Virus record (IMG/VR): IMGVR_UViG_3300014838_000047
Coordinates: 1-34,864 of that record
Length of the DNA stretch: 34,864 nt
Reading direction: 5' to 3' (one strand)
Origin: a virus
A program made the position numbers and the translations under genes. Below are positions 7,985 through 31,919 of the stretch, in pieces (position 1 is the stretch's first letter; each line of letters starts with the position of its first letter). Under the pieces are notes generated by a model that had not been told where the DNA came from, did not search any database, and was given only the letters and a program-made list of their open reading frames with translations.

Positions 7985-8004
7985 GGCCCCGGCGAGGGGC
8001 CTTT
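7985..8004 (+). terminator. Hairpin with GGCGA loop after the capsid gene
   Basis: A 6-bp perfect stem, ggcccc (7985-7990) and ggggcc (7996-8001), encloses the pentaloop GGCGA and is followed by TTT. Read on the other strand the loop is TCGCC, the loop seen in several other junction hairpins in this window. It starts 6 bases after the capsid stop codon. It may act as a first-stage terminator or as an mRNA 3'-end stabiliser. Confidence 0.55.
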
Positions 8005-8022
8005 CAATGTTGTATCCCCCAC

Positions 8023-8044
8023 GGGCCGCTCGCCTACGCGGCCC
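8023..8044 (+). other. Second post-capsid hairpin, TCGCCTAC loop
   Basis: A 7-bp perfect stem, gggccgc (8023-8029) and gcggccc (8038-8044), encloses an 8-base loop starting TCGCC. It lies between the first hairpin and the strong terminator, so the capsid gene is followed by three hairpins in about 110 bases. No T tract follows this one. Confidence 0.5.
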
Positions 8045-8056
8045 ACACCCCGGCGA

Positions 8057-8090
8057 AAAGGGGCCGCTTCGGCGGCCCCTTTCGTCTTTC
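8057..8090 (+). terminator. Strong terminator with UUCG tetraloop
   Basis: An 11-bp perfect stem (aaaggggccgc at 8057-8067 and its complement at 8072-8082) is closed by the very stable c(UUCG)g tetraloop and followed by a pyrimidine/T-rich stretch (8080-8090). This is the best intrinsic terminator in the window. It would stop most transcription after the capsid gene, giving capsid mRNA in excess over the connector genes downstream. Confidence 0.85.
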
Positions 8091-8105
8091 TGAAAAGAGG
8101 GAATT

Positions 8106-8366
8106 GTGGAATTCGACATTCCGAATGATCGGTGCACGCGGATCCGCATCAAGAGTTCCGGCCAGGTGATCGACGCGATCCCGGCCGTGGCGCGCGCCAT
8201 GCTCAACGGAGGCACCGCCGAACTTGTGAAGTCATCGGGCGGCGCCGCGCCCGAAACGGCGAGAATCGCGCCGCCGGAGCGCGCCGTGGCTCCCGCGCAA
8301 AACGCTCCACCGAAGAAGCCTGGCGACGCCCAGTCGCCAAAAGGAAAGGCACGGTCCGGGCGCTAA
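8106..8366 (+). CDS. Small hypothetical protein after capsid
   Basis: An 86-residue protein with GTG start at 8106, preceded by a good ribosome binding site (aaaagagggaa). The first ~45 residues look folded (MEFDIPNDRCTRIRIKSSG, then AIPAVARAMLNGGTAEL); the rest is a low-complexity Ala/Pro/Lys tail. It lies directly before the connector gene with no gap (stop at 8366, ATG at 8367). Small proteins of this sort between capsid and connector are frequent and mostly uncharacterised. The basic tail could contact DNA or be disordered. Confidence 0.7.
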   Translation: MEFDIPNDRCTRIRIKSSGQVIDAIPAVARAMLNGGTAELVKSSGGAAPETARIAPPERAVAPAQNAPPKKPGDAQSPKGKARSGR

Positions 8367-9254
8367 ATGGCAGGCCTGCAGATAGAGATCCCGCCGCCGG
8401 CGTTGCCGGTGTCGTTGAATGCGCTCAAGAGTCATTTGCGCATCGACATCAAAGACGACGACGAGCTGGTGAAGATCTACGCCCAGGCGGCGGTTGAGAA
8501 CGTGGAAGGCTTCACGCGCCGCACCACGGTGAACACGGGGTACGTGCAATCGCTCGACTCGTTCCCCTACTACACCGATTCAATGATGAGCCAGATGGCC
8601 TATCCGCCGGCGTATTACTCGCTGCCCCGGTATTCCACCACGCTGTGGAACTACTCGCAGATGATCAAGCTCTTCATGAGCCCGCTGGTGGAAGTCACCC
8701 GCATCGATTACGTGGATTCCGCCAGCGGCAACCTGCTGAGCCTGTATCCGGTGCTCGAAAACTGGGTGCCCGAGGTGCAGTACGAACTCGGCGACGAGAT
8801 CGAGGACCCGAACGGCAACCTGCAGACGGTCACTGCGATCGCCCAAGGGAAGAAGGGCATAAGCGGATCATCGACGCCCGCCTGGGCCACGATATCCGGA
8901 AACACCACGACGGACGGCGACCTGACCTGGACCTGCGGCCGCGCCGCTCCGGCGGGCAACTTCTTCGTGGATCGCGTGAGCGAGCCGCCGCGCATCTTTC
9001 CCGCTCCGGCGGGCACCACATGGCCGAGCGTGCTCTATGTGCCGAACGCCGTGCGCATTCACTACATCTGCGGCTATGGCAACACCGGTCTCAACGTGCC
9101 GGCGTGCGCGAAGGTGGCCATTCTTCAGATGTGCGGCAACTGGAACGAGAACCGCGAAAGCGTCTCGGATCAAACGCTGAAGACGATCCCGAATCACCTG
9201 CAGGAGCTTCTCTGGAATATCCGCGTTTTGGATTTCGCTCCGACGCGCGGCTGA
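8367..9254 (+). CDS. Head-tail connector (gp6-like) with inserted module
   Basis: A 295-residue head-tail connector. The N-terminal segment LPVSLNALKSHLRIDIKDDDELVKIYAQAA and VENVEGFTRRT is the classic start of the gp6-like/phiE125 gp8 connector family, whose members are usually about 100-200 residues. The extra length comes from an inserted module at about residues 139-192 (YELGDEIEDPNGNLQ ... TTTDGDLTWTCG), which follows the W/Y-x-G-D-x-V pattern of small beta modules related to carbohydrate-binding modules that recur on phage structural proteins. The C-terminal part (VRIHYICGYG...VCAKVAILQMCGNW) is again connector-like. Thus the connector ring may display a surface module. Confidence 0.85.
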   Translation: MAGLQIEIPPPALPVSLNALKSHLRIDIKDDDELVKIYAQAAVENVEGFTRRTTVNTGYVQSLDSFPYYTDSMMSQMAYPPAYYSLPRYSTTLWNYSQMIKLFMSPLVEVTRIDYVDSASGNLLSLYPVLENWVPEVQYELGDEIEDPNGNLQTVTAIAQGKKGISGSSTPAWATISGNTTTDGDLTWTCGRAAPAGNFFVDRVSEPPRIFPAPAGTTWPSVLYVPNAVRIHYICGYGNTGLNVPACAKVAILQMCGNWNENRESVSDQTLKTIPNHLQELLWNIRVLDFAPTRG

Positions 9255-9282
9255 AAATTCAAATCTCTCGGAGGAAAAGAAC

Positions 9283-9696
9283 ATGGCAGACGTAGCGGCA
9301 GTGAATTCCAACATCGGCAGCGCGGTGGCAGGCACTTCGCCCGACTATTCCACCAACATGGGGAAGGGCGAGAGCAAAAACGTGGAAGTCCACTCCGGCA
9401 CCGGCGGCGCGGGCGTCATCGGCATCACCAGCGGCAAGGTGATCATCACCGATTCCGGCGCGGCGCTGCTCACGCTGGTCGCTCCCACGGCCGGCACGAA
9501 GGTCTCCGGCGGCAACGACGGCGACCGGCTCACGATCTATTCCACCACGGCACAGGCGCACACCGTCACCACGCCGGCCAACAAAATCAACGGCAACAAG
9601 CTCACGGCCACGTTCGCGGCCGTCGCGGACCACATCGAGCTCGAGGCCTATAACGGCGTCTGGTACGCGATCAACAACAGCACCACGCTGAGCTAG
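9283..9696 (+). CDS. Decoration-type beta protein 1
   Basis: A 137-residue protein with a strong ribosome binding site (ctcggaggaaa) before ATG 9283. It is rich in Gly, Thr, Ser and Val, with a predicted all-beta core containing LTIYSTTAQAHTVTTPANK and ELEAYNGVWYAIN. This pattern recurs in phage head-decoration and tail-fibre proteins. It is related to the next gene (shared L-x-I-x-x-T ... AHTVT ... I-x-G) and to the fibre at 28438. Its own hairpin terminator follows. Capsid decoration is inferred from position and fold style; direct evidence is lacking. Confidence 0.7.
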   Translation: MADVAAVNSNIGSAVAGTSPDYSTNMGKGESKNVEVHSGTGGAGVIGITSGKVIITDSGAALLTLVAPTAGTKVSGGNDGDRLTIYSTTAQAHTVTTPANKINGNKLTATFAAVADHIELEAYNGVWYAINNSTTLS

Positions 9697-9717
9697 TTCT
9701 GATCTCTCGGTAACCCC

Positions 9718-9756
9718 GGGCGCGCCTTCAATTCGCATCGCGTGGCGCGCCCTTTT
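9718..9756 (+). terminator. Hairpin terminator after decoration gene 1
   Basis: A 9-bp perfect GC stem, gggcgcgcc (9718-9726) and ggcgcgccc (9744-9752), with a 17-base loop is followed by TTTT (9753-9756). It lies 21 bases after the stop of the first decoration-type gene and 24 bases before the next start, so it would partly insulate the two paralogous genes. Confidence 0.7.
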
Positions 9757-9780
9757 CAATTCCCCAGGAGGGAAAAGCAA

Positions 9781-10152
9781 ATGTCACAGACAGCACTTCC
9801 AGCAGTCAACGCGATTGTGGGGCCGTATCCGGCTTCGCTGCCGGTGAGCGCGGGCGCGCTCGCCGTCACCATGACGACGGCCGACGCCAGCAACGGCAAT
9901 TCGTTCGTCACCACCGGCACCGAAATCCTGCTGATTCAAAACACGGACTCGAGCGCCCACACGGTGACGATCTCTTCCGTGGCCATTAACGGGCGCACCG
10001 GCGATATCACCACCTACTCGGTGCCCGCGAACTCGATCGCCGCGTTCAGCTTCCGCGGCGGCCTGCAGGGATGGCAGCAATCCAATGGCAACGTGAACCT
10101 GGCCACGAGCTCCGCGCTGATCTACTTCGGCGTGATCAGGCCCTCGAGCTAG
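9781..10152 (+). CDS. Decoration-type beta protein 2
   Basis: A 123-residue, Ser/Thr/Ala-rich all-beta protein. ATG 9781 is preceded by a very good ribosome binding site (ccaggagggaaaa), preferred over the upstream in-frame start. The segment ILLIQNTDSSAHTVTISSVAINGRTGD aligns by eye with the first decoration-type protein (LTIYSTTAQAHTVTTPANKINGNK), and both end with an aromatic/Gly motif (GGLQGWQQ versus YNGVWYAI). It is probably a duplicated paralogue that forms capsid or tail decoration. The strong ribosome binding sites of both genes suggest abundant products. Confidence 0.7.
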   Translation: MSQTALPAVNAIVGPYPASLPVSAGALAVTMTTADASNGNSFVTTGTEILLIQNTDSSAHTVTISSVAINGRTGDITTYSVPANSIAAFSFRGGLQGWQQSNGNVNLATSSALIYFGVIRPSS

Positions 10153-10163
10153 TCAATTCCATC

Positions 10164-10204
10164 CCCAGGCTCGGCGGCTCCGTGAAAAGGGCCGTCGACC
10201 TGGG
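10164..10204 (+). repeat. CCCAGG/CCTGGG junction hairpin, copy A
   Basis: Outer arms cccagg (10164-10169) and cctggg (10199-10204), with secondary pairing tcg/cga inside them and ggc/gcc nearer the loop. This is one of five hairpins with the same outer stem in this window (others at 23415, 23967, 29432, 30832). The interior differs from the other copies while the outer stem is kept. Confidence 0.6.
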
Positions 10205-10219
10205 CGGCCGGCGCAAGGC

Positions 10220-10236
10220 GAGAAAACTGTTTTCTC
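10220..10236 (+). terminator. gagaaaa hairpin upstream of head closure gene
   Basis: A perfect 7-bp stem, gagaaaa (10220-10226) and ttttctc (10230-10236), with loop CTG. It lies 44 bases before the head closure start. Its A/T-rich arms end in Ts, so it may terminate weakly, or help by pausing. It is the second hairpin in the same 128-base gap. Confidence 0.4.
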
Positions 10237-10280
10237 TACCTTTTCGCTCCAAAAGTTCTTTCCGGTTGACAGCGCCATAA

Positions 10281-10652
10281 ATGCAAAACACGCGGATCGA
10301 GGCCGGCAAGCTGCGGCACCGGATCATCATCGTCAAGCCGACGCTCGCCCAGGACACGGCCGGCGGGTGGTCGGAAGACGCGGAGAACCAGGTGGCCACC
10401 ACTTGGGCATCGATCGAGGCCCTCACCGGCCGCGAGCTCTATGCTGCGCAGCAGCAGGTCTCGGAAGTGACGCACAAAATCACCATGCGCTACTGGCCGG
10501 GCATCACCGCGAACATGAACGTGTGGTTCCAGCAGCGGCAATTCCGCATCCTGGCGGCGCCGCTCGATCCCGATGAACGCCACAAGATGCTCGTGATGCT
10601 CTGCCTCGAACGCAACAATTCAGCCCGCGATGCCGGCGGCACCGCGGCCTAA
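10281..10652 (+). CDS. Head closure / head-tail adaptor protein
   Basis: A 123-residue head-tail adaptor of the SPP1 gp16-like family, which closes the connector after packaging. Family features: the N-terminal KLRHRIIIVKPTLAQDTAGGWSED with W-x-x-I-E-x-L-T-G-R-E-L, then THKITMRYWPGITANMNVWFQQRQFRI and a C-terminal segment with LVMLCLE. Length fits the family. There is no strong ribosome binding site at ATG 10281. It lies in the standard order between connector and HK97 gp10-like genes. Confidence 0.88.
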   Translation: MQNTRIEAGKLRHRIIIVKPTLAQDTAGGWSEDAENQVATTWASIEALTGRELYAAQQQVSEVTHKITMRYWPGITANMNVWFQQRQFRILAAPLDPDERHKMLVMLCLERNNSARDAGGTAA

Positions 10653-10656
10653 AAAC

Positions 10657-11163
10657 ATGCCCCCTGTAATCGAGGCGAAGGTTTCCGGGCTCGCCGGGAT
10701 CGAGGAGGCGCTGGAGCACGCACCGCTTCGCGTGGCCAAGCAGATCATGCGCAACGCGCTGGTGGCGGCCGGGCGCATCTGGAAATCCGAAATCGCGGCG
10801 CGGGTCCGGCGGGGCCCGCACCATCCGGACGGCGGCGGCAAGCCCGAATACGACGTCCTCGCCAATAACGTGCAGATCAGGACGCACGTTTCCGGCAGCG
10901 AAGTGCAGGGCTCCGTCTCGGTGGGCTTCAGCTCGAAATTCTACTGGGCCAAGTTCCTCGAACGCGGCACCGGCCCGCGCGAGCGCTGGAAAGGGAAGGG
11001 AAGCACGCGAGCAGCGTTTCGCGCGAAGGGCGCGGCGCGCCCGGGCGGCAATCGCATGCCGGCGTTTCCCTTCATGGCACAGTCGGGGCAGGCCCGCAGC
11101 CAGGACGTGCTCGATCGCTTCACCGAAGGCGTGCAGCAGGCCCTCAGCGAGGAATACCGCTAA
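10657..11163 (+). CDS. HK97 gp10-like morphogenesis protein
   Basis: A 168-residue protein of the HK97 gp10 family, involved in joining head and tail. Typical features: VSGLAGIEEALEHAPLRVAKQIMRNALVAAGRIWKSEIAARV, a mid region with SVSVGFSSKFYWAKFLERGTG and a C-terminal NRMPAFPFMAQSGQ. I place the start at ATG 10657, four bases after the upstream stop; an in-frame ATG at 10630 lies inside the previous gene and would add nine residues. Neither has a clear ribosome binding site. Confidence 0.88.
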   Translation: MPPVIEAKVSGLAGIEEALEHAPLRVAKQIMRNALVAAGRIWKSEIAARVRRGPHHPDGGGKPEYDVLANNVQIRTHVSGSEVQGSVSVGFSSKFYWAKFLERGTGPRERWKGKGSTRAAFRAKGAARPGGNRMPAFPFMAQSGQARSQDVLDRFTEGVQQALSEEYR

Positions 11164-11167
11164 TCCC

Positions 11168-11587
11168 GTGCTCGATGAAGGTCTGAATCAACTCATCGCG
11201 ACGTCCGCCACGGTGCTCGCGCAGGTAGGCGCGAGCCGCAAAGACAAGACGACCGGAATTTTCGGCGGCCAGGCCCCCGGGCAAACGCCTTTGCCCTTCG
11301 TGGTGATCGAGCAGATCGGCGGCGATCCCATCATGACGCTCGATGGCCCGCTGCTGACGCGCACGGCGCGCTTCAAGTTTTCGTGCCACTCGGATTCGCG
11401 GCTCGCGGCGAAGCGGCTGATGAAGGCCGTGCGCGGCACGCTGGAGAATTTCACCGGCATGCTGCCCGACGGCACCAATCTGCAGAACGCGGAGACGGTG
11501 CTCGAAGCGGATGCCTTCGAATACGCGCCGCTCGATTACGTGGCGCCGCTCGAAGTGGAGCTGCTGTACGACGACACCGGTTCCTGA
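11168..11587 (+). CDS. Tail completion / terminator protein (DUF3168-like)
   Basis: A 139-residue protein with GTG start four bases after the previous stop. MLDEGLNQLIATSATVLAQVG, PFVVIEQIGGDP, LTRTARFKFSCHSDSRLAAKRLMKAVRGTLENF and the ending YAPLDYVAPLEVELLYDD follow the layout of gp17-like/DUF3168 tail terminator proteins, which cap the tail tube and contact the head. Position directly before the tail tube gene agrees. Family recognition is by pattern only. Confidence 0.82.
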   Translation: MLDEGLNQLIATSATVLAQVGASRKDKTTGIFGGQAPGQTPLPFVVIEQIGGDPIMTLDGPLLTRTARFKFSCHSDSRLAAKRLMKAVRGTLENFTGMLPDGTNLQNAETVLEADAFEYAPLDYVAPLEVELLYDDTGS

Positions 11588-11600
11588 TTTCGTTTTTTCC

Positions 11601-11624
11601 GCCGACTAGCCGTCGGCAATTTTT
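11601..11624 (+). terminator. Hairpin with TAGCC loop and T tract
   Basis: A 6-bp perfect stem, gccgac (11601-11606) and gtcggc (11612-11617), with loop TAGCC is followed by AATTTTT (11618-11624). It starts 14 bases after the tail terminator stop codon. The loop differs by one base from the TCGCC loop of the next hairpin 12 bases further on. It would end the head-gene transcript. Confidence 0.7.
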
Positions 11625-11628
11625 CGTA

Positions 11629-11645
11629 GCCCACTCGCCGTGGGC
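11629..11645 (+). other. Hairpin with TCGCC loop before tail tube
   Basis: A 6-bp perfect stem, gcccac (11629-11634) and gtgggc (11640-11645), with loop TCGCC. It directly follows another hairpin with an unrelated stem and near-identical loop. A third weaker stem (ccgcc 11656-11660 / ggcgg 11676-11680) follows before the tail tube ribosome binding site, so three hairpins lie in this 115-base gap. Confidence 0.6.
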
Positions 11646-11702
11646 AAAATCTCGACCGCCGGGCCCGCAACGGCTGGCGGAATAAAAAAGGAGTGAACCA
11701 CC

Positions 11703-12125
11703 ATGTCAAGCACAGGTCTTGCGGGACGCGGCGCCCATCTGCAGCGCAGCCCAGACGGCGTCACCTACACCACTCTCGCGCAGGTCAAATCGTTTCAGCA
11801 ATCCGGATCGAAGCAGGATTACGACGACATCACCAACATGGACTCGCCGTCGTCCTTCCGGGAATACCTCGCGACCCTGAACGACAGCGGCGAGATGGGT
11901 TTCGATCTCATCTTTTTGCCGGGCAGTTCGATCCAGCAGCAGCTCCGCACGGATTTCAACAACCAGACGCTGCTCTACTGGAAAGTTGTGCTGAGCAACG
12001 GCACCAACGGCGTCAGTTTTACGGCCTACGTGCAATCGCCCGGCGACCTCGACAACAAGGTCGACAAGGCCGTGGTTCGGTCCGGCGCGAAGCTCAAGAT
12101 CACCGGCCCCGTCACCGAGTTCTAA
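11703..12125 (+). CDS. Tail tube protein
   Basis: A 140-residue tail tube protein, whose hexamers stack to make the tail tube. ATG 11703 follows aaaaaaggagtgaacc, a good ribosome binding site. The sequence is beta-rich with the features of small siphovirus tube proteins: GAHLQRSPDGVTYTTLAQVKSF, then DITNMDSPSSFREYLATLNDSGEMGFDLIF, and a C-terminal KAVVRSGAKLKITGPV. Length, the strong translation signal and flanking hairpins fit a major structural gene. The tape measure gene follows about 6 kb further on rather than the usual 1 kb. Confidence 0.88.
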   Translation: MSSTGLAGRGAHLQRSPDGVTYTTLAQVKSFQQSGSKQDYDDITNMDSPSSFREYLATLNDSGEMGFDLIFLPGSSIQQQLRTDFNNQTLLYWKVVLSNGTNGVSFTAYVQSPGDLDNKVDKAVVRSGAKLKITGPVTEF

Positions 12126-12135
12126 AATCTCTCGC

Positions 12136-12158
12136 CCGGCGGCGTCTAGCTTCGCCGG
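12136..12158 (+). other. Hairpin after tail tube gene
   Basis: A 6-bp stem, ccggcg (12136-12141) and cgccgg (12153-12158), with an 11-base loop containing CTAGC. It lies 11 bases after the tail tube stop. A shifted 5-bp alternative pairing gives a shorter 8-base loop around CTAGC. It resembles the TAGCC-loop hairpin before the gene, so the tail tube gene is bracketed by related hairpins. No T tract follows. Confidence 0.45.
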
Positions 12159-12210
12159 TTCAAACCCTGAAAAAGTCACCGGGCCACGCGGCCGCCGGGG
12201 CGATGAGAAA

Positions 12211-12609
12211 ATGATTTTCCGGATGGATCTGGACGTGAAGTCGATCGACAACATCGAGAAGCTGCCGCTGCTGCCCGATTCTCGCCTTAAAACGCCCACA
12301 AACGTGCAGCTCCATCTCGGCCGCAACTGGGTGCCGATCTACTGCGCGAGCTGCCACAAGGACAGCGGCACGTTCGTGATGGAGGAGAACTGCACGTTCG
12401 CGTTCTATCTGTGCGATCCGTGCGCGGCCCGGTTCGGAAATATTGACGGCACCTACGCGGTGCCGGACGAGGTTTTCTTCGAGCGCGTAAAGCAGGCCCA
12501 GCTCGAGGAGTTTGGAAGGGAACTCACCGTTCCGGAACTGATCGAGGCGGTGAGTCAGGAAGATCACATTCTGAGCAAGCTGGCCAAAGACAGGCCGGGA
12601 GGGAGATGA
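12211..12609 (+). CDS. Zinc-ribbon protein in tail operon
   Basis: A 132-residue protein with a central zinc-ribbon pattern: CASCH at about residues 46-50 and CDPC about 25 residues later, which together can bind one zinc. The C-terminal third is acidic and helical (VKQAQLEEFGRELTVPELIEAVSQED). ATG 12211 is used, although ATG at 12223 (MDLDVKS) is also possible; neither has a strong ribosome binding site. It lies where tail assembly chaperones often are, just after the tail tube, but it does not resemble those; the chaperone pair lies at 16982-17859. Function unknown. Confidence 0.7.
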   Translation: MIFRMDLDVKSIDNIEKLPLLPDSRLKTPTNVQLHLGRNWVPIYCASCHKDSGTFVMEENCTFAFYLCDPCAARFGNIDGTYAVPDEVFFERVKQAQLEEFGRELTVPELIEAVSQEDHILSKLAKDRPGGR

Positions 12610-12612
12610 GCA

Positions 12613-13092
12613 ATGCCATTCGTTTACGATATTTCGCTCGCAACCGCGGGTAACGTCACCACCAACGCTACCGGGGGAACCGAGAACAACACATTCTCGA
12701 TCAAGGCAGGAGCGGCCAACTGCGCCCTGCAGGCAATGTATGCCATCGGGAAGGGCGCCGCACTCACCTCGATTTCCGGCATCGTTCACCGCATCGTGCA
12801 CTGGGCCACCGCTTCCACCAGCGGCACGACGGTCACCCCCACGCCGAAAGACAGCCGCCTGCAGGGCAGCGTCTCCGCAAAGGCGACCGTCGTTTCGGCG
12901 GCCACCAACGGCTCGACGCGCACGAACAAAGTGGTCTTCGGCCACGGCGCGGCCGGGCCCGGCGGATGGGTTGCTCCCAATCCGGATTCCGCTGAAGCGC
13001 TGATCGCCAGCGGCTCGGATTCGATCGACGCGCTGAACGCCTCCGGAACGGCATCGCTGGCGTTCGAGTGGTCCGGCGAAATCGTCGAATAA
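12613..13092 (+). CDS. Putative structural protein
   Basis: A 159-residue, Ser/Thr/Ala/Gly-rich protein with beta-strand style, beginning MPFVYDISLATAGNVTTNATGG. There is a ribosome binding site within gggagatgagca before ATG 12613. The piece GGWVAPNPDSAEALIASGSDSIDALNASGT reads like surface proteins of phage virions. No catalytic motif or signal peptide is seen. A strong terminator follows, separating it from the accessory block. I infer a minor virion component, perhaps a tail decoration, from composition and position only. Confidence 0.65.
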   Translation: MPFVYDISLATAGNVTTNATGGTENNTFSIKAGAANCALQAMYAIGKGAALTSISGIVHRIVHWATASTSGTTVTPTPKDSRLQGSVSAKATVVSAATNGSTRTNKVVFGHGAAGPGGWVAPNPDSAEALIASGSDSIDALNASGTASLAFEWSGEIVE

Positions 13093-13120
13093 GCCGGTCG
13101 CAGGCAAAAAGCAAGACATC

Positions 13121-13150
13121 GGGCATCGCGCCTCGCGCGCGGTGCCCTTT
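13121..13150 (+). terminator. Long-stem terminator with CTCGC loop
   Basis: An 11-bp stem with one G-U pair (13121-13131 with 13137-13147) closes a CTCGC loop and is followed by a TTTCTCTT tract. It separates the structural gene at 12613 from the accessory block. The GTG at 13142, one possible start for the next gene, falls inside the 3' arm, which is why I prefer the later ATG at 13163. Confidence 0.75.
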
Positions 13151-13162
13151 CTCTTCGATACG

Positions 13163-15309: not shown

Positions 15310-15312
15310 CCC

Positions 15313-16978: not shown

Positions 16979-16981
16979 AAA

Positions 16982-18055: not shown

Positions 18056-18083
18056 TTTTTCAAGTTTTCATAAAAACGTAAAA

Positions 18084-21368: not shown

Positions 21369-21381
21369 GGAGAAACCAAAA

Positions 21382-21660
21382 ATGAGCTGGGGATACAACT
21401 TTATCGGCAAGCTTCCCGCGGTGCGCACGAAGGTGCAGGCGCTCAATCAGACGTTCACGGTGTCGGGCGAGCAGGAAATCTACGACGCCGCGAAGATCAT
21501 GGTGCTCGCGGCGCTCGACTGCGTCGACGATACGAAAGTCGTGAAGGTCGACGCTTCCGGATCCGCCTACGCCGGGGATACCGTCGCGCCGCCGCGCTTC
21601 GCCAAAGGCGGCAACGCGACCGTGCAGGTGGCGGAGATCTCCGGCTTCCTCGTCGAATAA
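21382..21660 (+). CDS. Small tail protein, unknown
   Basis: A 92-residue protein, ATG 21382 after a good ribosome binding site (aaggagaaacc). It is of mixed alpha/beta style (MSWGYNFIGKLPAVRTKVQALNQTFTVSGEQEIYDAAKIMVLAALDC, then KVVKVDASGSAY...ATVQVAEISGFLVE). No motif. It follows the tape measure gene and precedes DUF2460, a place often taken by a small tail-tip assembly factor. Not recognised. Confidence 0.7.
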   Translation: MSWGYNFIGKLPAVRTKVQALNQTFTVSGEQEIYDAAKIMVLAALDCVDDTKVVKVDASGSAYAGDTVAPPRFAKGGNATVQVAEISGFLVE

Positions 21661-21670
21661 TTCCTTCCCC

Positions 21671-21692
21671 CGGGGACACTGGGCGGCCCCTG
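21671..21692 (+). repeat. Partial junction repeat, copy D
   Basis: The stretch cggggacactgggcggccccTG matches the right part of the dispersed junction element (compare 23989-24004 and, inverted, 29424-29448) but lacks the cccagg left arm. It lies 8 bases before the next start codon, so it is probably a decayed copy sitting on the translation start region. Confidence 0.45.
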
Positions 21693-21699
21693 AAAAAAC

Positions 21700-22389: not shown

Positions 22390-22395
22390 TTTTTT

Positions 22396-22482
22396 ATGGC
22401 GCTCGATTCCTCGCGACCTGACCCGGCGCTCAGCGCGCGCGCTTACTTTCAAAGTCATATACCGGCCACTCATATACCGTGA
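22396..22482 (+). CDS. Possible 28-codon leader ORF
   Basis: A short frame, ATG 22396 to TGA 22480-22482, lies in the 89-base gap between DUF2460 and DUF2163. Its stop overlaps the GTG start of DUF2163 (GTGA), the same coupling used elsewhere in the operon. The peptide ends in a repeat, HIPATHIP, from the DNA direct repeat tcatataccg at 22455 and 22470. It might be a translated leader that couples translation to the next gene. No ribosome binding site is evident, so support is weak. Confidence 0.3.
   Translation: MALDSSRPDPALSARAYFQSHIPATHIP
22455..22479 (+). repeat. Direct repeat tcatataccg x2
   Basis: Ten-base direct repeats tcatataccg at 22455-22464 and 22470-22479, 15 bases apart, directly before the DUF2163 start. 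The second copy's last base is the first base of the GTG start. Unlike the GC-rich neighbourhood they contain TATA. They could be a protein-binding site or the residue of a small duplication. Confidence 0.5.
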
Positions 22483-23399: not shown

Positions 23400-23414
23400 C
23401 GTGACATTTTATTC

Positions 23415-23457
23415 CCCAGGCTCGCCCTTTTTCAGGAAAGGGGCTCGTCGACCTGGG
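23415..23457 (+). repeat. CCCAGG/CCTGGG junction hairpin, copy B
   Basis: Outer stem cccagg (23415-23420) with cctggg (23452-23457); inner stem ccccttt-type pairing (23425-23430 with 23437-23442) and a 6-base loop. The 3' arm runs into gggagg (23455-23460), the likely ribosome binding site of the NlpC/P60 gene starting at 23466, so formation of this hairpin would compete with ribosome binding. Confidence 0.65.
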
Positions 23458-23465
23458 AGGCCCCT

Positions 23466-23963
23466 ATGACTACCACTGCCCAAATCGTCGCCAAGGCGCG
23501 CGAGTTCCTCGGCACGCCGCTTCATCACCAGGGCCGCATCAAGGGCAAGCGGATCGACTGCGTGGGCCTGGCGCTCTGCGTGGCCGAGGAGCTCGGCCTG
23601 CACGATAAGAACGGCAACGCGCTGCACGGCCGCGACCACCTGAACTACGGCCCGCAGCCGCTTGGCAACCTGGTGCACGAGACGGCGAAAGCGCGCCTGG
23701 CGCTGAAGTGGGAAGCCGCGCAGAAGGTTCCCATGCCCGCGATCGCGCCGGGGGACGTGCTCACGATCCGGAATCCGAACGCCGCCTGTCATGCGGGAAT
23801 TGTTTCTTCGCTGAACGGTTCGCTCGCGATCATCCACGCTTACGCATCGGGGCCCGCGCGGCCCGGGCCGCGGAACAAGCAGCGCGTTTGCGAGCACGTG
23901 CTCGATGCGAGCTGGCGCGCGCGCATCGAGGGCATCTTCGAATTTCCGGGAGTGACATCTTGA
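23466..23963 (+). CDS. NlpC/P60 family tail peptidase
   Basis: A 165-residue NlpC/P60 cysteine peptidase, tail-associated and able to cut peptide stems of peptidoglycan during infection (GTA gene 14 counterpart). The catalytic Cys is C32 in IDCVGLALC, the His is H109 in AACHAGIV and the third polar residue is H124 in IIHAYA. The N-terminal VAKAREFLGTPLHHQGR is typical. Length matches phage members. Start ATG 23466 with gggagg upstream, inside a hairpin arm. Confidence 0.93.
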   Translation: MTTTAQIVAKAREFLGTPLHHQGRIKGKRIDCVGLALCVAEELGLHDKNGNALHGRDHLNYGPQPLGNLVHETAKARLALKWEAAQKVPMPAIAPGDVLTIRNPNAACHAGIVSSLNGSLAIIHAYASGPARPGPRNKQRVCEHVLDASWRARIEGIFEFPGVTS

Positions 23964-23966
23964 TTC

Positions 23967-23995
23967 CCCAGGCTCGACTCGCCGTCGACACTGGG
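23967..23995 (+). repeat. CCCAGG/CCTGGG-type junction hairpin, copy C
   Basis: Arms cccaggctcgac (23967-23978) and gtcgacactggg (23984-23995) enclose loop TCGCC. The inner five pairs are perfect and the outer arm carries an extra base. It lies 3 bases after the NlpC/P60 stop and 13 bases before the next start, followed by cggcccctg as in copies B and D. Confidence 0.65.
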
Positions 23996-24008
23996 CGGCC
24001 CCTGTAAC

Positions 24009-24944: not shown

Positions 24945-27505
24945 TGGCCGCGCCAGTCGTCGTACAGGCAAACGTCGGCTCCGGGCAGCCAGGTCCGGTA
25001 AACGTCGCGCTCCGCACCCCGCCTACAGCCGGGAATCTGCTCGTGCTCATCGCGCGGCAGCGCGGCTCGGCGCCCGCAAGCAGCGCGGGGGAGTGGAATT
25101 CCAGCACCGACTATACCCAGGGGTCGGTGGTTTCTATCGGCGGCGCCCTCTACCAATCATGGAACAGCCTGCAATTCGACAAGTGCGAGGAGGCAGAAAG
25201 GATTAATGAGGGCTACGTGCCCCCGAGCTACCTCCTTCCCACCCTGTGTTTCGCCGCCGCGTGGTGGGCAAATCATCCCGTCGTCAACGGCGTTCTAGGC
25301 GCCGGGGCCGCTCCGCCGGACTACGACGAATGGACTCTCGTGCAGCCGGGATTAGGGATCGCGATCTGGACCAAAACCTCCAACGGCAGCGACGGGGGAG
25401 CCGTGGTGGGCTTTGGCTACTTTCAATACGACATCGACGTGTACATGTTCGAGCTATCGAACGCAAGCCTCTTCGACATTGTGCCGGGGAGCGGAACCTC
25501 CAGTTCCGTTTCGGCCAGCGGCGACGGATTCTCCGTAACGGTACCGCTTTTTGCCAGCTTCAACTGGAACAGCTACCTCATCGTTTTTCAATCGCTCACT
25601 ACCACCGACAAAACCGCACTTCTGCTGATCACGCCTGTATCAGTAACATCGTGGATAACGCCGTATCCCGGGAATCCGCCTTCGGGGTGGGCCGCGATCT
25701 TTGGCACATGCTCGGAGGTGCTATCCAGCGCGGGATTGTCGCCGGCCCTGCCGACGAGTGACATCGTCACCGACATCTGCCTGCGCGCGGGACTGAGCTC
25801 TTCTCAGATCGACGTTTCGCTGCTCACCAACGCAAACGTCTTCGGCGGCAGCACGCAGGTGCTCGGCTATCTCGTCGAGCGGCCCACGGCCGCGGCGGAG
25901 ATCCTGAAGCCGCTGATGCAGGGCTACTTTTTCGACGGCTGCGAAACCAACGGGACCATGAAGTGGGTGCCGCGCGGCCTCTCGAGCGCGCTCACGATTC
26001 CGGAATCCGACCTCGGCCTGCTCTCCGATGGCGCCAAGGTGAAGCCGGAGCAGATCGCCCAGGAGCAGGACCTGCCGCTCGCCTTCACCGTGCTCTATAA
26101 CGACATCGCCCTCGATTACCAGCAGGGAAGCCAGCAGCGCACGCGCAGCTCGCGCGTGAAAAAGACCAAGCAGCAGACGATCATTTCGCTGCCGATCGTG
26201 ATGACGGCCACCCAGGCCCTACAGATCGCAGAAACCGCTCTCTACCTCGCGTGGCTCGAGCGCAATTCCTTCACCTTCAACCTGGGCTCGCCGAAGTATA
26301 TGCAACTCGACCCCACCGACGTGGTGCAGTTCGTCTACGAGGGCCTCACCTTCCAGATACGCATCGTGGAGAACTCGCTCGGCCAGGGATTTGCCGTGAT
26401 GATTTCTGGCGTGAACGAAGACGCGCGGAACTTCCTCTCGTCGCTCAGCGCGCCGCTGCCGGTAAGCTTCAATCCCGCGCCGACCCGGCTGGTGGGATCC
26501 TCGGTGCTTTTCCTTTTCGATATCGCGCTGCTGCAGGATACAGACTCGAACCCCGGCGGCACAGGCTTCTATTTCGCCATGGCCTCGGCCGTCACGAACT
26601 GGACCGGCGGCGTGCTGCTCGATTCGAGCGACAATTCGAATTTCTCCCAGGAAGACGCCACCAGCCTGAACGCCACCTACGGCTACGCCACCACCACGCT
26701 CGCCGCGCCGCGCGAGCCCTGGGAGCTCGACACAGTGAACACCGTGACGGTGCAGCCGGTGACGGGCTCGCTCGCCGGCGATACGCTGGCCAACGTGCTC
26801 AACGGCTCGAACGCGCTGATCCTTGGAAATGAAATCATCCAGTTCGTGAACTGCATCGACAACGGCGACGGCACCTACACGCTCAGCAATCTGCTGCGCG
26901 GCCGGCGCGGCACCGAATGGGCCTGCGGCACGCACGGCGCGAACGAACTATTTGTGATGCCCTCGAGCGGGGCGCAGCGCGTGCAGGATCCGCTTAGCGT
27001 GCTGGGCCAGACGCTCTATTACAAAGGCGTCACCGTGGGGCAGGATCCTTCCACCGTGACGTCGCAGACGCTGGCGATTTCCGGCGCGGACCTGAAGCCT
27101 TACGCGCCGGCGGGAATCGGCGGCACCGTCGACGGGAGCGGGAATATCACCATCACGTGGATCCGCCGCACGCGCATCGGCGGCGAAGCGGACTGGGCCG
27201 ACGGCGTGGCCGACGTGCCGCTCAGCGAGGACGCGGAACTCTACGACGTGGACATTCTGAACGGATCCACTGTGGTGCGGACCTTCACGAATCTCACGGC
27301 ACCAGTCTGCATTTACTACGCCGCGCAGCAGACGGCCGATTTCGGATCCACGCAGGCCTCGGTGACGGCGAACGTGTACCAGAAGTCCGCGCAGGTGGGC
27401 CGCGGCTATAAAGGTACCGGCGTGGCGCCCACCGCTGGCAGCTGGCCCGTGCCCTGGCCGGCGCCCCCAGGCGGCGTCGGGCAGTTCTACGTGAACGGAT
27501 CCTAA
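24944..27505 (+). CDS. Tail-tip host-specificity protein, C-terminal part
   Basis: An 853-residue tail-tip protein (phage-tail_3/GTA gp15-like). The family part starts near residue 273 with DIVTDICLRAGLSSSQIDVS, continues with RPTAAAEILKPLMQGYFFDGCETNGTMKWVPRG, LAFTVLYNDIALDYQQGSQ and YLAWLERNSFTFNLG, then GCGxxG-type C-terminal repeats with LLRGRRGTEWACGTHGANELFV and a fibronectin-like domain (GNITITWIRRTRIGGEADWADG). Residues 1-268 are foreign to the family: a beta-sandwich start like that of the 14506 protein (PTAGNLLVLIARQRG), an interrupted carbohydrate-binding-like module (EWNSSTDYTQGSVVSIGGALYQSW) and a further beta segment. Function: receptor contact and baseplate hub. Confidence 0.88.
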   Translation: MAAPVVVQANVGSGQPGPVNVALRTPPTAGNLLVLIARQRGSAPASSAGEWNSSTDYTQGSVVSIGGALYQSWNSLQFDKCEEAERINEGYVPPSYLLPTLCFAAAWWANHPVVNGVLGAGAAPPDYDEWTLVQPGLGIAIWTKTSNGSDGGAVVGFGYFQYDIDVYMFELSNASLFDIVPGSGTSSSVSASGDGFSVTVPLFASFNWNSYLIVFQSLTTTDKTALLLITPVSVTSWITPYPGNPPSGWAAIFGTCSEVLSSAGLSPALPTSDIVTDICLRAGLSSSQIDVSLLTNANVFGGSTQVLGYLVERPTAAAEILKPLMQGYFFDGCETNGTMKWVPRGLSSALTIPESDLGLLSDGAKVKPEQIAQEQDLPLAFTVLYNDIALDYQQGSQQRTRSSRVKKTKQQTIISLPIVMTATQALQIAETALYLAWLERNSFTFNLGSPKYMQLDPTDVVQFVYEGLTFQIRIVENSLGQGFAVMISGVNEDARNFLSSLSAPLPVSFNPAPTRLVGSSVLFLFDIALLQDTDSNPGGTGFYFAMASAVTNWTGGVLLDSSDNSNFSQEDATSLNATYGYATTTLAAPREPWELDTVNTVTVQPVTGSLAGDTLANVLNGSNALILGNEIIQFVNCIDNGDGTYTLSNLLRGRRGTEWACGTHGANELFVMPSSGAQRVQDPLSVLGQTLYYKGVTVGQDPSTVTSQTLAISGADLKPYAPAGIGGTVDGSGNITITWIRRTRIGGEADWADGVADVPLSEDAELYDVDILNGSTVVRTFTNLTAPVCIYYAAQQTADFGSTQASVTANVYQKSAQVGRGYKGTGVAPTAGSWPVPWPAPPGGVGQFYVNGS

Positions 27506-27511
27506 CTACCA

Positions 27512-27528
27512 GATCCCCTGAAGGGATC
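27512..27528 (+). other. Hairpin before fibre gene
   Basis: A 6-bp stem, gatccc (27512-27517) and gggatc (27523-27528), with loop ctgaa, 14 bases before the fibre ATG at 27542. The A-rich stretch after it (gaaacgaaaa) contains no strong Shine-Dalgarno sequence. It may act on expression of the fibre. Confidence 0.4.
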
Positions 27529-27541
27529 GAAACGAAAATTC

Positions 27542-28369
27542 ATGTCCGGACCAACCGAAGGAAATCTGAACGCCACCAATCCCGCGGCGCCGAGCGGCAA
27601 ACAGAATTGCAGTTTCCAGGCGAGCGCGCCTTACATCGATACGGCCACCGGGCTGCAGGAGCGCGACATCTCGGCGTACCCGCAACCCGCGACAGCATCT
27701 CTTGAAGGCACGATCATACTTGCCAAAGACATCGGCGGGACATCCGACCTTCCCGAGGTCGTCGGAGTCCAAGGAATTCCGATCGCTGGATCGGGTCCGA
27801 GTGACGGATACGTTCCGACTTACGTGTCGGCAAGTTCAAACATCCAGTGGAAAGCTGGCGGAGGCACACCCTCTCCAACGATTCAATCGAGCAACAACGG
27901 TATTGCGGAATCCACTTCCGCCTTCGCCATGAAGGGGAATCTAGTCGTTCCGACGCAGAACATCACCGTCTCTTACGTGTTCGGGAACATCTACGGCAAC
28001 TCGGGAGACGTGTATCAATGCCTGATCTACAGCATCACCGGGACTTCGACGATTGCAACCATCGTCGCGACTTCGTCGACGTACACTTTCGGATCGACAT
28101 TCACCGGCCCCATCGCTTTCAACATGGGGGCAGTGGCATTAACGGCGGGCACGACCTACGCGATAGTTTTCCAGATCACGAGCGGGACAAGCACGACGCC
28201 GTGCCAGATAGACATACCCGCGACTCCCTGGGAATGCGTAGGGTTCAAGGTTCTAAGCGGGTCCGTGAGTATCATCCGCAGCGCGAACGTCAGCCCGACA
28301 ACCGGAACGACACTTTCCACAAGTACCGGGGGCAACGCTTGCGCTCTGAATCTCGTCGTCAGTCCCTAA
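27542..28369 (+). CDS. Tail fibre protein
   Basis: A 275-residue fibre. The N-terminal third contains DIGGTSDLPEVVGVQGIPI followed by DGYVPTYVSASSNIQWKA, a motif pair very common where phage fibres attach and trimerise. The rest is a ~150-residue Ser/Thr/Ile beta domain (AMKGNLVVPTQNITVSYVFG, VYQCLIYSITGTSTIATI, AFNMGAVALTAGTTYAIVFQ) of jelly-roll style that probably binds the host surface. More A/T-ending codons than in the core tail genes suggest recent exchange, as is usual for fibres. Confidence 0.8.
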   Translation: MSGPTEGNLNATNPAAPSGKQNCSFQASAPYIDTATGLQERDISAYPQPATASLEGTIILAKDIGGTSDLPEVVGVQGIPIAGSGPSDGYVPTYVSASSNIQWKAGGGTPSPTIQSSNNGIAESTSAFAMKGNLVVPTQNITVSYVFGNIYGNSGDVYQCLIYSITGTSTIATIVATSSTYTFGSTFTGPIAFNMGAVALTAGTTYAIVFQITSGTSTTPCQIDIPATPWECVGFKVLSGSVSIIRSANVSPTTGTTLSTSTGGNACALNLVVSP

Positions 28370-28437
28370 GTGAGCCGACGCGGCGGAATCGAGCGATGCC
28401 TGTTTTCTGGGCCGGAATTTAGAGGAGAAGAAAACAC

Positions 28438-29118
28438 ATGAGCACGCCGAATTTGGGAATCGCGCTGCTGGCCGAATCGCAGAGCAGCAAGTATGTGACG
28501 ATGAACAACGCGCTCGATGCTCTCGACGAAGCGGTGGCCGGCTTCAGCTCGATAGCCATGAGCGATGCGAACCTCACGCTCTCGACCACCCAGGCCTATG
28601 GCTCCTTCGTGCTGGCGTTCACCGGCACGCTCACGGCCAACCGCAACATCGTGGTGCCGGCCACGGCCAAGCTCTACGTGATCGTGAACGCCACCACGGG
28701 CGGCTTCACTCTCACCGTGCTCACTTCGCATTCGGGCAGCAACGGAAGCGTGGCCGTGCTGCCGGGAGCCACCCGGCTGGTCTATTCGGACGGCACCAAC
28801 GTGGCCGCGGTGAATTCGCCGGCGAACGCCCAGAACTTCACCGGCACGGCCACTATGGGACTGGTGATCTTCGATCAGTTCGTTACGCTCGACGCCACCT
28901 CCGCCGCCTTCACGCTCACGCTTCCGGACGCGACAAAATGCTCGGGAACGAAAATCAGCTTCGTGAAAAAAGATTCCAGCGGGAACCTGCCCACACTGCA
29001 GGGCGCCAGCTCGCAAAACATCGGAGCCTCCAACACCTACACGGGCCTCTCGGCGCAATATAAGTCGGTGACGATCGCCTCCAACGGCACGCAGTGGTAT
29101 GTGACAGCTTCCAACTAA
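28438..29118 (+). CDS. Second tail fibre-type protein
   Basis: A 226-residue protein, ATG 28438 after a strong ribosome binding site (agaggagaag). The N-terminus STPNLGIALLAESQSSKYVTMNNALDALDEAV is typical of phage fibre proteins (DUF2793-like) where it mediates attachment. Then come two beta repeats: TLSTTQAYGSFVLAFTGTLTANRNIVVPATAKLYVIVN and FVTLDATSAAFTLTLPDATKCSGTKISFVKK, each like the decoration proteins at 9283 and 9781. Two-fibre arrangements are common after the tail-tip gene. Confidence 0.78.
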   Translation: MSTPNLGIALLAESQSSKYVTMNNALDALDEAVAGFSSIAMSDANLTLSTTQAYGSFVLAFTGTLTANRNIVVPATAKLYVIVNATTGGFTLTVLTSHSGSNGSVAVLPGATRLVYSDGTNVAAVNSPANAQNFTGTATMGLVIFDQFVTLDATSAAFTLTLPDATKCSGTKISFVKKDSSGNLPTLQGASSQNIGASNTYTGLSAQYKSVTIASNGTQWYVTASN

Positions 29119-29136
29119 AGTTACCCGGAGGGCCGG

Positions 29137-29421
29137 ATGAACCAGCAGATGCGCTTTTCGCCGCGGGTGGAAGAACGCCTGGCCGGCGCGGTGATGCGGG
29201 TGATGCGGAACTTCGCGAAAAAGTACGGCCGCGAATTCGTTATGGACCACGTTGATCACGCCGACTTCCGCGATGCGTTCGCGGAAGACATGCGGCCCGT
29301 GATCCACCGCGAGCTGCTGCGAGCGCGCATGGACGCTCTGCAGGTGCCGCCGGCGCAGCGCGAACAGGAGAAGCGCAAGGCGGTGATGGAGCTCGCCCAG
29401 CTCGACGAGATAACGAAGTGA
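29137..29421 (+). CDS. Hypothetical helical protein
   Basis: A 94-residue protein with a good ribosome binding site (ccggagggcc) before ATG 29137. It is charged and helical (VEERLAGAVMRVMRNFAKKYGREFVMDHVDHADFRDAFAEDM, then REQEKRKAVMELAQLDE). No membrane segment or motif. It lies between fibres and the small membrane proteins of the lysis block. Function unknown; might be a fibre chaperone or a regulator. Confidence 0.7.
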   Translation: MNQQMRFSPRVEERLAGAVMRVMRNFAKKYGREFVMDHVDHADFRDAFAEDMRPVIHRELLRARMDALQVPPAQREQEKRKAVMELAQLDEITK

Positions 29422-29431
29422 AAAGGGGCCG

Positions 29432-29459
29432 CCCAGGTCCCCGGCGAGGGGAACCTGGG
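29432..29459 (-). repeat. CCCAGG/CCTGGG junction hairpin, copy E (inverted)
   Basis: Outer stem cccagg (29432-29437)/cctggg (29454-29459), inner stem cccc/gggg, loop GGCGA (TCGCC on the minus strand). The conserved flank ggcccc lies on the left (29425-29430), so relative to copies B and C the element is inverted. It sits 8 bases before the next start codon. A preceding AAAA and following GGGGAAAA would favour termination on the minus strand. Confidence 0.65.
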
Positions 29460-29467
29460 GAAAAGTT

Positions 29468-29683
29468 ATGAACGGCATCCCGCTGAATGCGGTGATCTGG
29501 CTGGTGGGCGTGATCTTCGGCGCCGGATCCGCCTGGGCCGCGCTGCAGCGCACGCGCAAGGACCTGAACGGCGTGGGCGGCCGCCAGCGGCGCTTTGAGA
29601 AGAACGTGGTGCTCGCGCTGATGATCAACGCCGAGAAGCGCGAGGACCGCATGCTACTCGCGCAATTTCTCAAAGACCCATGA
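29468..29683 (+). CDS. Small membrane protein of the lysis block
   Basis: A 71-residue protein with one N-terminal membrane segment (about 5-26, LNAVIWLVGVIFGAGSAWAALQ) and a basic cytoplasmic tail (RTRKDLNGVGGRQRRFEKN...NAEKREDR). The start is close behind a junction hairpin. Its stop overlaps the next gene (ATGA). A single-TM protein with charged tail next to a spanin-like gene could be a holin or an accessory to lysis, but membership of a holin family cannot be recognised by eye. Confidence 0.7.
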   Translation: MNGIPLNAVIWLVGVIFGAGSAWAALQRTRKDLNGVGGRQRRFEKNVVLALMINAEKREDRMLLAQFLKDP

Positions 29684-29835
29684 AAATTTCGGAGAGTGAC
29701 TTCCGGCGCTGGCAGGACGAAGTGCGCGAGCGGCCGCCGATGCCGGAGCTCCAGCAGCCGCCGGTGCCAGAAGTGGAACCGGAGCCTGAGACCTGGATTA
29801 CGAAAATCCTGAAAATATTCCGGAGGAGCAGATGA
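29680..29835 (+). CDS. 51-residue protein with ATGA overlaps
   Basis: A short gene, ATG 29680 to TGA 29835, with ATGA overlaps at both ends (previous stop 29681-29683, next ATG 29832), which is strong support despite the length. The protein is 51 residues: a charged start (MKISESDFRRWQDEVRERP), a Pro/Glu-rich middle (PPVPEVEPEPET), and an amphipathic basic end (WITKILKIFRRSR). The C-terminal basic amphipathic helix might bind membrane. Function unknown, in the lysis block. Confidence 0.7.
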   Translation: MKISESDFRRWQDEVRERPPMPELQQPPVPEVEPEPETWITKILKIFRRSR

Positions 29836-30560
29836 CATCCGTACCAGCAACGCAGGCAACGGCCGGCCCCACAACGACGGCAACGCCGGCAGCGGCCGCG
29901 CCCGCCGCGCCGGCAACGGCCGGGGCCATCTTCGCGAAGCTGCTGATCTTCGTCTTGGCGATCGTCGCGGTGGCGTGGGCAGGGCATTCGTGGATCGCCG
30001 AGCACGACGCGCGGGTGAAGGCCGAGGCCTCCGTGGCAGCTTCGCAAAAGTCGATCGACTCCGCGGCTGCCGAGAAGAAAGAGCTCATCGACGAGCAGAA
30101 GGCGCGGGACGCGCAGACCGCTTCGCAGATCGACAAACTAGCGGCCTCCGCTGCGATGCAAAAAACGCCGCAGCAGATCGTGAAGTGGTTGCCGATGCAG
30201 CTCGGGCCGCTGCCGGCGCCGGTGAAAGCCTCGATCGCGCCGGCCACGCCGCAGGATCCCGCTCCGCCGGCCGTATTCACCGTTCCGCAGGCAGACCTGG
30301 CCGCCATGCGGGATCAGGTGGCTTCGTGCCAGAAAAACGCTGTGGCGCTTCCCAGCGCGCAGCAGGATGCATCCTCGTGCGAAGCCCGGGCGAAGCTCAG
30401 CGCGGAGCAGCTGGCGGCCGCCCAGGACCAGGTGAAGGCGCTCGATCTGGAATTGAAGGGGGGAACGTTCTGGCACCGGCTGAAGTCCGGCGCAAAGAAG
30501 GTGGGAATCGGGGTGGCGATCGGCGCCGCGGCCGTCTGCGCGTCTGGGCACTGTAAATAA
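29832..30560 (+). CDS. Spanin-like membrane protein with coiled coil
   Basis: A 242-residue protein. An Ala/Thr/Pro-rich N-terminus (~30 residues) precedes a membrane segment at about 33-52 (IFAKLLIFVLAIVAVAWAGH). A long Ala/Lys/Glu/Gln helical region (KAEASVAASQKSIDSAAAEKKELIDEQKA) follows, then a Pro-rich linker, a second helix (AKLSAEQLAAAQDQVKALDLELKGG) and a hydrophobic C-terminal segment (GIGVAIGAAAVC, ending in GHCK). N-terminal anchor plus periplasmic coiled coil is the design of inner-membrane spanins (Rz-like), and the C-terminal hydrophobic end may reach another membrane. No catalytic site. The role in lysis is inferred. Confidence 0.65.
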   Translation: MTSVPATQATAGPTTTATPAAAAPAAPATAGAIFAKLLIFVLAIVAVAWAGHSWIAEHDARVKAEASVAASQKSIDSAAAEKKELIDEQKARDAQTASQIDKLAASAAMQKTPQQIVKWLPMQLGPLPAPVKASIAPATPQDPAPPAVFTVPQADLAAMRDQVASCQKNAVALPSAQQDASSCEARAKLSAEQLAAAQDQVKALDLELKGGTFWHRLKSGAKKVGIGVAIGAAAVCASGHCK

Positions 30561-30564
30561 AAAA

Positions 30565-30593
30565 TTGACGATCGTCACGGCTTCCTTGACAAT
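30565..30593 (+). promoter_or_regulatory. Possible promoter in lysis-recombinase gap
   Basis: TTGACG (30565-30570), a 17-base spacer and GACAAT (30588-30593) give a moderate sigma-70-type match. The -35 overlaps a perfect palindrome gacgatcgtc (30567-30576). It could drive transcripts toward the small recombinase. The -10 matches only four of six bases. Confidence 0.35.
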
Positions 30594-30617
30594 CGCCTGG
30601 CTAAAACGCTGCAATCC

Positions 30618-30634
30618 GGGGCCTCGCGCCCCTT
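30618..30634 (+). terminator. Hairpin with CTCGC loop after lysis block
   Basis: A 5-bp stem, ggggc (30618-30622) and gcccc (30628-30632), with loop CTCGC and TT after it. The loop equals that of the terminator at 13121-13150. It lies 57 bases beyond the last lysis gene and may end the late transcript. Confidence 0.5.
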
Positions 30635-30831
30635 CCTCACCCCACATCGCGAGGCTCCGCTTTCCCTCCACCGTTACCGCCAATTCCCGCTAAACTGAGC
30701 GCGGACCGGGCCCCACTTTCTAGGGGAAGGCACGGAACTGCATCCCGCGACAAAACGTTTCTGGCGCTGTACACGCGGCGAATCGAGTGGGAGGAACTCG
30801 GCGGTTTCGGCGGGGGACCCGGTCCAGATGC

Positions 30832-30859
30832 CCCAGGCTCGACTCGCCATCGACCTGGG
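30832..30859 (+). repeat. CCCAGG/CCTGGG junction hairpin, copy F
   Basis: The best-preserved copy: outer stem cccagg (30832-30837)/cctggg (30854-30859), tcga/tcga inner pairing, loop TCGCC. It lies about 65 bases before the small recombinase start, outside the late operon, so the repeat is not confined to structural-gene junctions. Confidence 0.7.
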
Positions 30860-30923
30860 CGCTCCCACTTACTTCACAAACCCACTTCTACCGTCGATTA
30901 CCAAACGATAGCTGCTGTCCCCA

Positions 30924-31478: not shown

Positions 31479-31495
31479 GGGGGTAGCCGGAAGGC

Positions 31496-31838: not shown

Positions 31839-31919
31839 GTGAGCAGCGGGGTAGCTCCTGCCGGGTTCGCACCCACGGAAGACGGCGCCGCCCGCCGCGG
31901 TTTCAATCGAGACGCTTTC

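Follow-up and report, generated by a model that had tools for sequence, protein, structure and literature searches.

A 42-nt palindromic element with a constant loop, probably mobile, in a siphophage and in Acidobacteriota chromosomes

Why should hairpins at separate gene junctions of one phage enclose the same loop? The window analysed here is the whole 34,864-nt IMG/VR virus record IMGVR_UViG_3300014838_000047, from a virus of a soil bacterium; its head and tail genes are those of a siphophage of the HK97 type. A sequence-only reading of it had listed nine junction hairpins in which the same or nearly the same loop was carried by stems described as unrelated, and had proposed that the loop is recognised by an RNA-binding protein or by the transcription machinery. 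All nine are present, folding as described. However, most of the similar ones are copies of a palindromic element of about 42 nt. We consider it probable (roughly four chances in five) that this element is mobile, similar to the Rickettsia palindromic elements (RPE) and the repetitive extragenic palindromic (REP) sequences of other bacteria, and common to the chromosomes of an Acidobacteriota family and to temperate siphophages of the group to which the window belongs.

The window hairpins and the 42-nt element

The excess of shared-loop hairpins over chance was confirmed by a dinucleotide-shuffle control. Five intergenic C(TNNCC)G pentaloops with a stem of at least 5 bp are found in the window against a mean of 0.065 in shuffled sequences, none of 1000 of which reached the window count; with a stem of at least 6 bp the figures are 3 and 0.015, and for two-layer hairpins with this loop, 2 and 0.055 (0/200). 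Three of the nine fall outside this loop class, namely 13121 and 30618, with loop CTCGC, and 8023, with an 8-nt loop; hairpin 13121 overlaps the predicted start of a gene at 13142.

The loop is indeed constant, but the stems of 23967, 30832 and 29432 belong to one element. The first two are 93% identical across 28 nt, and 29432, previously taken as a separate stem, is the same unit on the minus strand (Table 1). Compared side by side, the window junctions have in common the outer frame CCCAGG ... CCTGGG, with CGGCCCC or a similar sequence after it, and the element consensus is ATCYCCCAGG-c-TCGAC-TNRCC-GTCGA-CCTGGG-(C/A)G(G)CCC. In the fold, a small internal loop or a bulge on one side separates the outer stem CCCAG(G)/(C)CTGGG from an inner stem of 5 bp, which carries a TNRCC pentaloop closed by C-G; the element is flanked by ATC on one side and GGCCCC/AGCCC on the other. 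Among copies the inner stem varies with compensation (TCGAC/GTCGA, TCCCC/GGGGA and others), and the loop remains TNRCC.

A covariance model, R1, with a seed of 15 copies of which two come from the window, matches six window sites, four of them outside the seed. Three of the six, starting at 10159 and at 23410 (in both of which other sequence replaces the loop) and at 21664 (truncated), had been missing from the earlier list. The host and virus copies matched by R1 are independent of the seed-included window copy 29423-29464. No match was found in the window with Rfam 15 at the gathering threshold.

The sequence-only reading had expected stems to change under a constant loop, and in relatives the stems do covary. 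In an alignment of 68 viral and bacterial copies, standard pairs fill 98.2% of the paired cells, and 64 cells are double changes against 20.0 in shuffles, a count that leans towards the model because the alignment was fitted to it. The covariation score is 0.275, compared with 0.104 in shuffles, and slid controls do not exceed 0.079. A gap-free, hand-picked seed of equal-length copies gives 14 double-change cells against 5.4 in shuffles. The variable spots are the middle of the inner stem and the outer stem (CCCAG/CTGGG versus CCCGG/CCGGG), while the loop is T-N-R-C-C in nearly all 68 copies, the exceptions being TATCC and TTTCC.

Hairpins 7985, 11601 and 11629 have the C(TNRCC)G loop in common without the element frame, and by the shuffle result they are not chance. 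A GGCCCC-TTGCC-GGGGCC hairpin comparable to 7985 is found in an element-bearing contig (L081). The process behind the 42-bp element may have left these three as remnants, or may use them as substrates.

Table 1. Copies of the element, frameless hairpins of the same loop class and recombinase genes in the window
Feature	Position	Strand	Remarks
Full 42-nt element, loop TCGCC, inner stem TCCCC/GGGGA (hairpin 29432-29459)	29423-29464	-	R1 63.2 bits, E 2.8e-15; in seed
43-nt element, loop TCGCC, TCGAC/GTCGA, extra A in outer internal loop (hairpin 23967-23995)	23962-24004	+	R1 54.8 bits; outside seed
Element, loop TCGCC, upstream of small recombinase gene (hairpin 30832-30859)	30827-30868	+	R1 54.3 bits
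Element, terminal loop and upper stem swapped for another small hairpin	23410-23466	+	R1 41.8 bits; outside seed
Element, enlarged terminal part	10159-10213	+	R1 29.5 bits
Truncated or half element (GGGGACACTGGGCGGCCCCT)	21664-21692	+	R1 18.9 bits, E 0.03
Hairpin C-TAGCC-G, element frame missing	11601-11617	+	Same loop class; surrounding ~55 nt missing in L283
Hairpin C-TCGCC-G, element frame missing	11629-11645	+	Same loop class; within same indel versus L283
Hairpin GGCCCC-TCGCC-GGGGCC (minus strand), element frame missing	7985-8001	-	Same loop class
184-aa tyrosine recombinase, catalytic domain only	30924-31478	+	Pfam PF00589
Full-length tyrosine recombinase (integrase)	33523-34527	-	

Copies in other viruses, in host chromosomes and inside genes

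Besides the window, about a dozen virus contigs carry the element, which can point either way relative to the genes. A pattern scan of viral contigs gave copies with loops TAGCC, TAACC, TTACC and TGGCC on inner stems TCGAC/GTCGA or TCCCC/GGGGA. Most lie in short gaps between co-directional genes, about 17 antisense and 11 sense, with gene positions taken from a codon-usage gene caller trained on the window genes. The covariance-model search of relatives that had been proposed as a check succeeded in these viruses and in one Acidobacteriota family but not in capsid relatives, of which 49 loci searched with R1 had no element except L006, the same phage as the window. Among named phages and plasmids, all matches were short and due to chance.

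Copies come and go at orthologous junctions. Contig L364, 82-87% identical to the window over aligned stretches, has an empty site at the junction orthologous to window 23963/24009, and at that orthologous to 21664-21692 it carries a full copy in the opposite orientation. At window 10152/10164 the copy is absent from L283, whose junction is shorter, and present in L076; L283 also lacks the 55-nt stretch holding hairpins 11601 and 11629. Between L078 and L314, at an orthologous junction with near-identical flanks, the inner stem differs by two compensated pairs, and the outer stem and the loop TTACC are the same. A small extra gene of the window (21382-21660, between the tape measure gene and 21700) is missing in L364, which has a full element instead.

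In bacteria, neither a strict pattern nor a shallow model search gave anything credible in 297 Acidobacteriota genomes; three weak matches of the shallow search lay in coding DNA and were false. The conclusion that hosts lack the element, drawn from these searches, was wrong, because a deeper model search of fewer genomes found copies in 3 of 18. Genome G598 was drawn from the class of G001 (the genome of locus L003, Acidobacteriaceae bacterium Centralia_MAG_86), and a model search of the Acidobacteriota family of G598 found 11 of 41 genomes positive, with 1-16 copies each and 71 in total. The host copies adjoin ordinary chromosomal genes. A 300-kb sample of other G598 contigs held none, and copies are therefore few.

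Head-to-tail pairs in exact 42-bp register occur at L522, L526 and L540. Several host copies are nested: in L428, L429 and L432 the tip of an outer CCCAGG/CCTGGG copy holds a second copy, whose flank is TGATCTCCC, and other copies lie within a longer palindrome, GGGTCAGTTTGAATTTT ... AAAATTCAAACTGACCC (L514, L515, L521, L523, L531). This longer palindrome is itself a second dispersed host palindrome, with copies of the 42-bp element in its loop. In G598 and G449 a short motif, TTCCGGCCACTTCGTGGCCTCTTC, also a hairpin, adjoins several host copies on their 5' side (L427-L431) and may belong to a larger composite repeat.

That all hairpins are in gene junctions holds within the window but not for the wider family, copies of which are also found in frame inside genes. 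In a phage coding gene (L193) the copy is a 51-nt insertion (GGRPGPRQGEPGDK) missing in the orthologs of L078 and L314. An acyl-CoA dehydrogenase of G378 has 14 extra residues of the GLPGPRQGEPG type; it aligns over its full length with structures 4l1f and 5ol2, and the element is its sole long insertion, in a turn of the fold before the C-terminal third. RHS-type genes of G409 and G529 allow filled and empty sites to be compared: in G409 the filled gene is exactly 42 nt longer, with two paralogs on the same contig empty, and in G529 two units in tandem (84 nt) occupy the same site. Further in-frame copies lie in a gene for a cytochrome-like protein (G413) and in a G422 gene with the look of a lytic transglycosylase, the latter in a locus that is probably a prophage.

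How the element may move, and other explanations

The sequences show that the family combines dispersal in both orientations, presence and absence at orthologous sites, in-frame insertion, empty paralogs, tandems, nesting and compensated stems, for which a mobile palindrome is the best fit. Loop constancy is better explained by a palindrome that needs to fold, and whose loop is possibly read by a mobilising enzyme, than by a junction RNA. In the mechanism that we infer, a host enzyme acting in trans would grip the folded single strand at its fixed loop and bulge and so move the unit; phages would pick up copies during lysogeny and may ferry them between hosts; and insertions would be tolerated at gene junctions and in protein surface loops. 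A more specific version is conceivable but rather unlikely. In it the enzyme would fall outside both the Y1 transposases and the known integrases, would recognise the folded strand via TNRCC and would prefer the loops of other palindromes as insertion sites, with temperate phages as shuttles between Acidobacteriota and with hairpins 7985, 11601 and 11629 as further substrates.

Several points weigh against a mobile element. Neither excision nor transposition was observed, and no target-site duplication is visible at the RHS site or in L193 compared with L078. No mobilising enzyme was found: the Y1 transposase (PF01797) is absent from G598, G449 and nine carrier virus records, with one weak match in G422, an absence that is not final in drafts and fragments, and no transposase-like neighbour of the host-copy clusters stood out on reading gene translations. 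The copy number is low for REP-type repeats, and hairpins 7985, 11601 and 11629 are not accounted for by the 42-bp family. Some of the turnover, for instance that between L078 and L314, could be due to gene conversion or homologous recombination among copies and not to transposition. Finally, the host genomes are drafts, and some copies may lie in prophages, as those of G422 probably do.

The alternative that survives best, although we consider it unlikely, is that these are ordinary REP elements moved by a RAYT (a Y1 transposase) whose gene is missing from the draft assemblies. Size, imperfect palindrome, fixed loop with compensated stems, and intergenic as well as in-frame intragenic copies all match REPs (PMC3733652). 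Nevertheless, the GTAG/CGTC tag is missing at both ends of the aligned copies, and the low copy number and the Y1 search speak against it as well.

Somewhat less likely still is an RNA role of the kind proposed by the sequence-only reading. The junction hairpins would then act as terminators, antiterminators or processing sites, their constant UNRCC loop being recognised by RNA polymerase or by an RNA-binding protein of phage or host. Such a role would fit the constant loop, the compensated stem changes and the position of most phage copies in short junctions of co-directional genes, and the UNR start of nearly all loops could form a U-turn. However, with copies antisense about as often as sense, half would present GGYNA instead, and the T tracts reported after several hairpins are no feature of the family, whose aligned 3' flanks are GGCCCC/AGCCC and then variable bases. 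The gain and loss of copies at junctions, their presence inside phage and host coding genes, their dispersal in bacterial chromosomes and the lack of an Rfam match also count against it, and an RNA of the phage lineage was rejected because the 49 capsid-relative loci, other than L006, lack the element. The hairpin forms in any transcript that crosses the element, and local effects on mRNA are possible; nothing in the data indicates that they are the reason for its presence. A terminator function for the family was likewise rejected: the sole clear terminator is a strong hairpin, AAAGGGGCCGC-TTCG-GCGGCCCCTTT, at 8057-8082, 3' of the capsid gene and kept in L007, which is an ordinary intrinsic terminator.

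It is very unlikely that the 184-aa tyrosine recombinase of the phage uses the copies, folded or double-stranded, as attC- or dif-like sites of crossover. Relatives of this enzyme with at least 66% identity were found only in element-bearing virus records (four, all with elements), the element lies just upstream of a homolog in L363 as it does in the window, and a two-layer hairpin with a bulge and a variable tip recalls attC. Against this, co-occurrence in viruses is confounded by shared ancestry, the arms differ within a single genome, a 39-kb virus record (G332) has the element and no close recombinase, and the host genomes richest in copies (G491, G413, G409) are without a close relative, because of which the enzyme is not favoured as the mobiliser either. 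Around this gene we also noted an outer-membrane barrel plus PDZ protein gene (32533-33450) between the two recombinase genes; three copies of a palindrome-like repeat, CGTAAC...GTTACCT, to the right of the small recombinase (31495-31520, 31919-31944 and 32106-32131), which are possible operator or att-arm sites; and a segment of ~120 bp near the small recombinase, adjoining an element copy, that is inverted between related phages (L361 2730-2853 versus L209 3486-3651).

Chance folding of GC-rich DNA, a caution already raised with the original list, may apply to the three hairpins outside the loop class, and terminator-like sites in the window are overall at the shuffled expectation, but for the element copies it is refuted by the shuffles and, with R1 E-values near 1e-12 to 1e-15, has a negligible share as an explanation of the family.

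Comparison with known systems

Few unexplained features of bacterial genomes are as common as small palindromic repeats, and the way in which those lacking a RAYT move is an open question, stated as such for the CGTC REPs (PMC3733652). The family described here offers a unit defined at 42 bp, orthologs and paralogs in which the site is either empty or filled, and single and tandem copies at one site; its constant loop hints at what is recognised, and transfer between hosts could be explained by a phage carrier. The family also serves as a warning that hairpins which look conserved at phage gene junctions may be selfish DNA and not regulatory RNA.

Sites of the attC or tyrosine-recombinase kind would be expected to have a cognate recombinase in every carrier, which is not what we see in the element-rich hosts or in G332. 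The PeSL mobile regulatory cassettes of T4-type phages are junction stem-loops that come and go at orthologous positions; unlike them, the 42-bp element has no visible promoter part, and its copies are also found in host chromosomes and inside genes. Miniature inverted-repeat transposable elements (NEMIS/Correia, RUP, ERIC) resemble it in being non-autonomous and palindromic; they are moved in trans and alter flanking transcripts, as may also be true of the element, but they differ in having separate terminal inverted repeats around a body and target-site duplications, and in being much longer.

REPs of the GTAG and CGTC superfamilies, with or without a RAYT, are imperfect palindromes of 20-40 bp with short fixed loops and an unpaired GTAG or CGTC end tag (PMC3733652). 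The element is like them in its imperfect palindrome, short conserved loop, compensated stem variants, junction and intragenic sites, and tandem or paired copies. Its flanks in the 68 aligned copies, by contrast, are ATC/GATC/TTATC and (C/A)G(G)CCC, with neither tag, it is low in copy number, it is present in phage late operons, and no Y1 enzyme was found in the carriers checked.

The RPE and the Wolbachia palindromic elements are dispersed between genes and in frame within coding genes, in surface loops, and have no known mobilising enzyme (PMC3767692, PMC10969869). Like these, our element is a dispersed palindrome both between genes and in frame within them, and insertions in unrelated genes with empty orthologs or paralogs are seen in L193, the RHS genes and the acyl-CoA dehydrogenase. 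It differs in its setting (Acidobacteriota and phages, not Rickettsiales), in its 42-bp unit against 100-150 bp, in being GC-rich with a constant TNRCC loop, in being carried by phages and in its exact 42-bp tandems; given the difference in size and base composition, membership by sequence in a described RPE family is unlikely. Since the tags are absent and no Y1 transposase was found, we do not file the element as a REP; it works like one, and in its coding insertions it works like an RPE.

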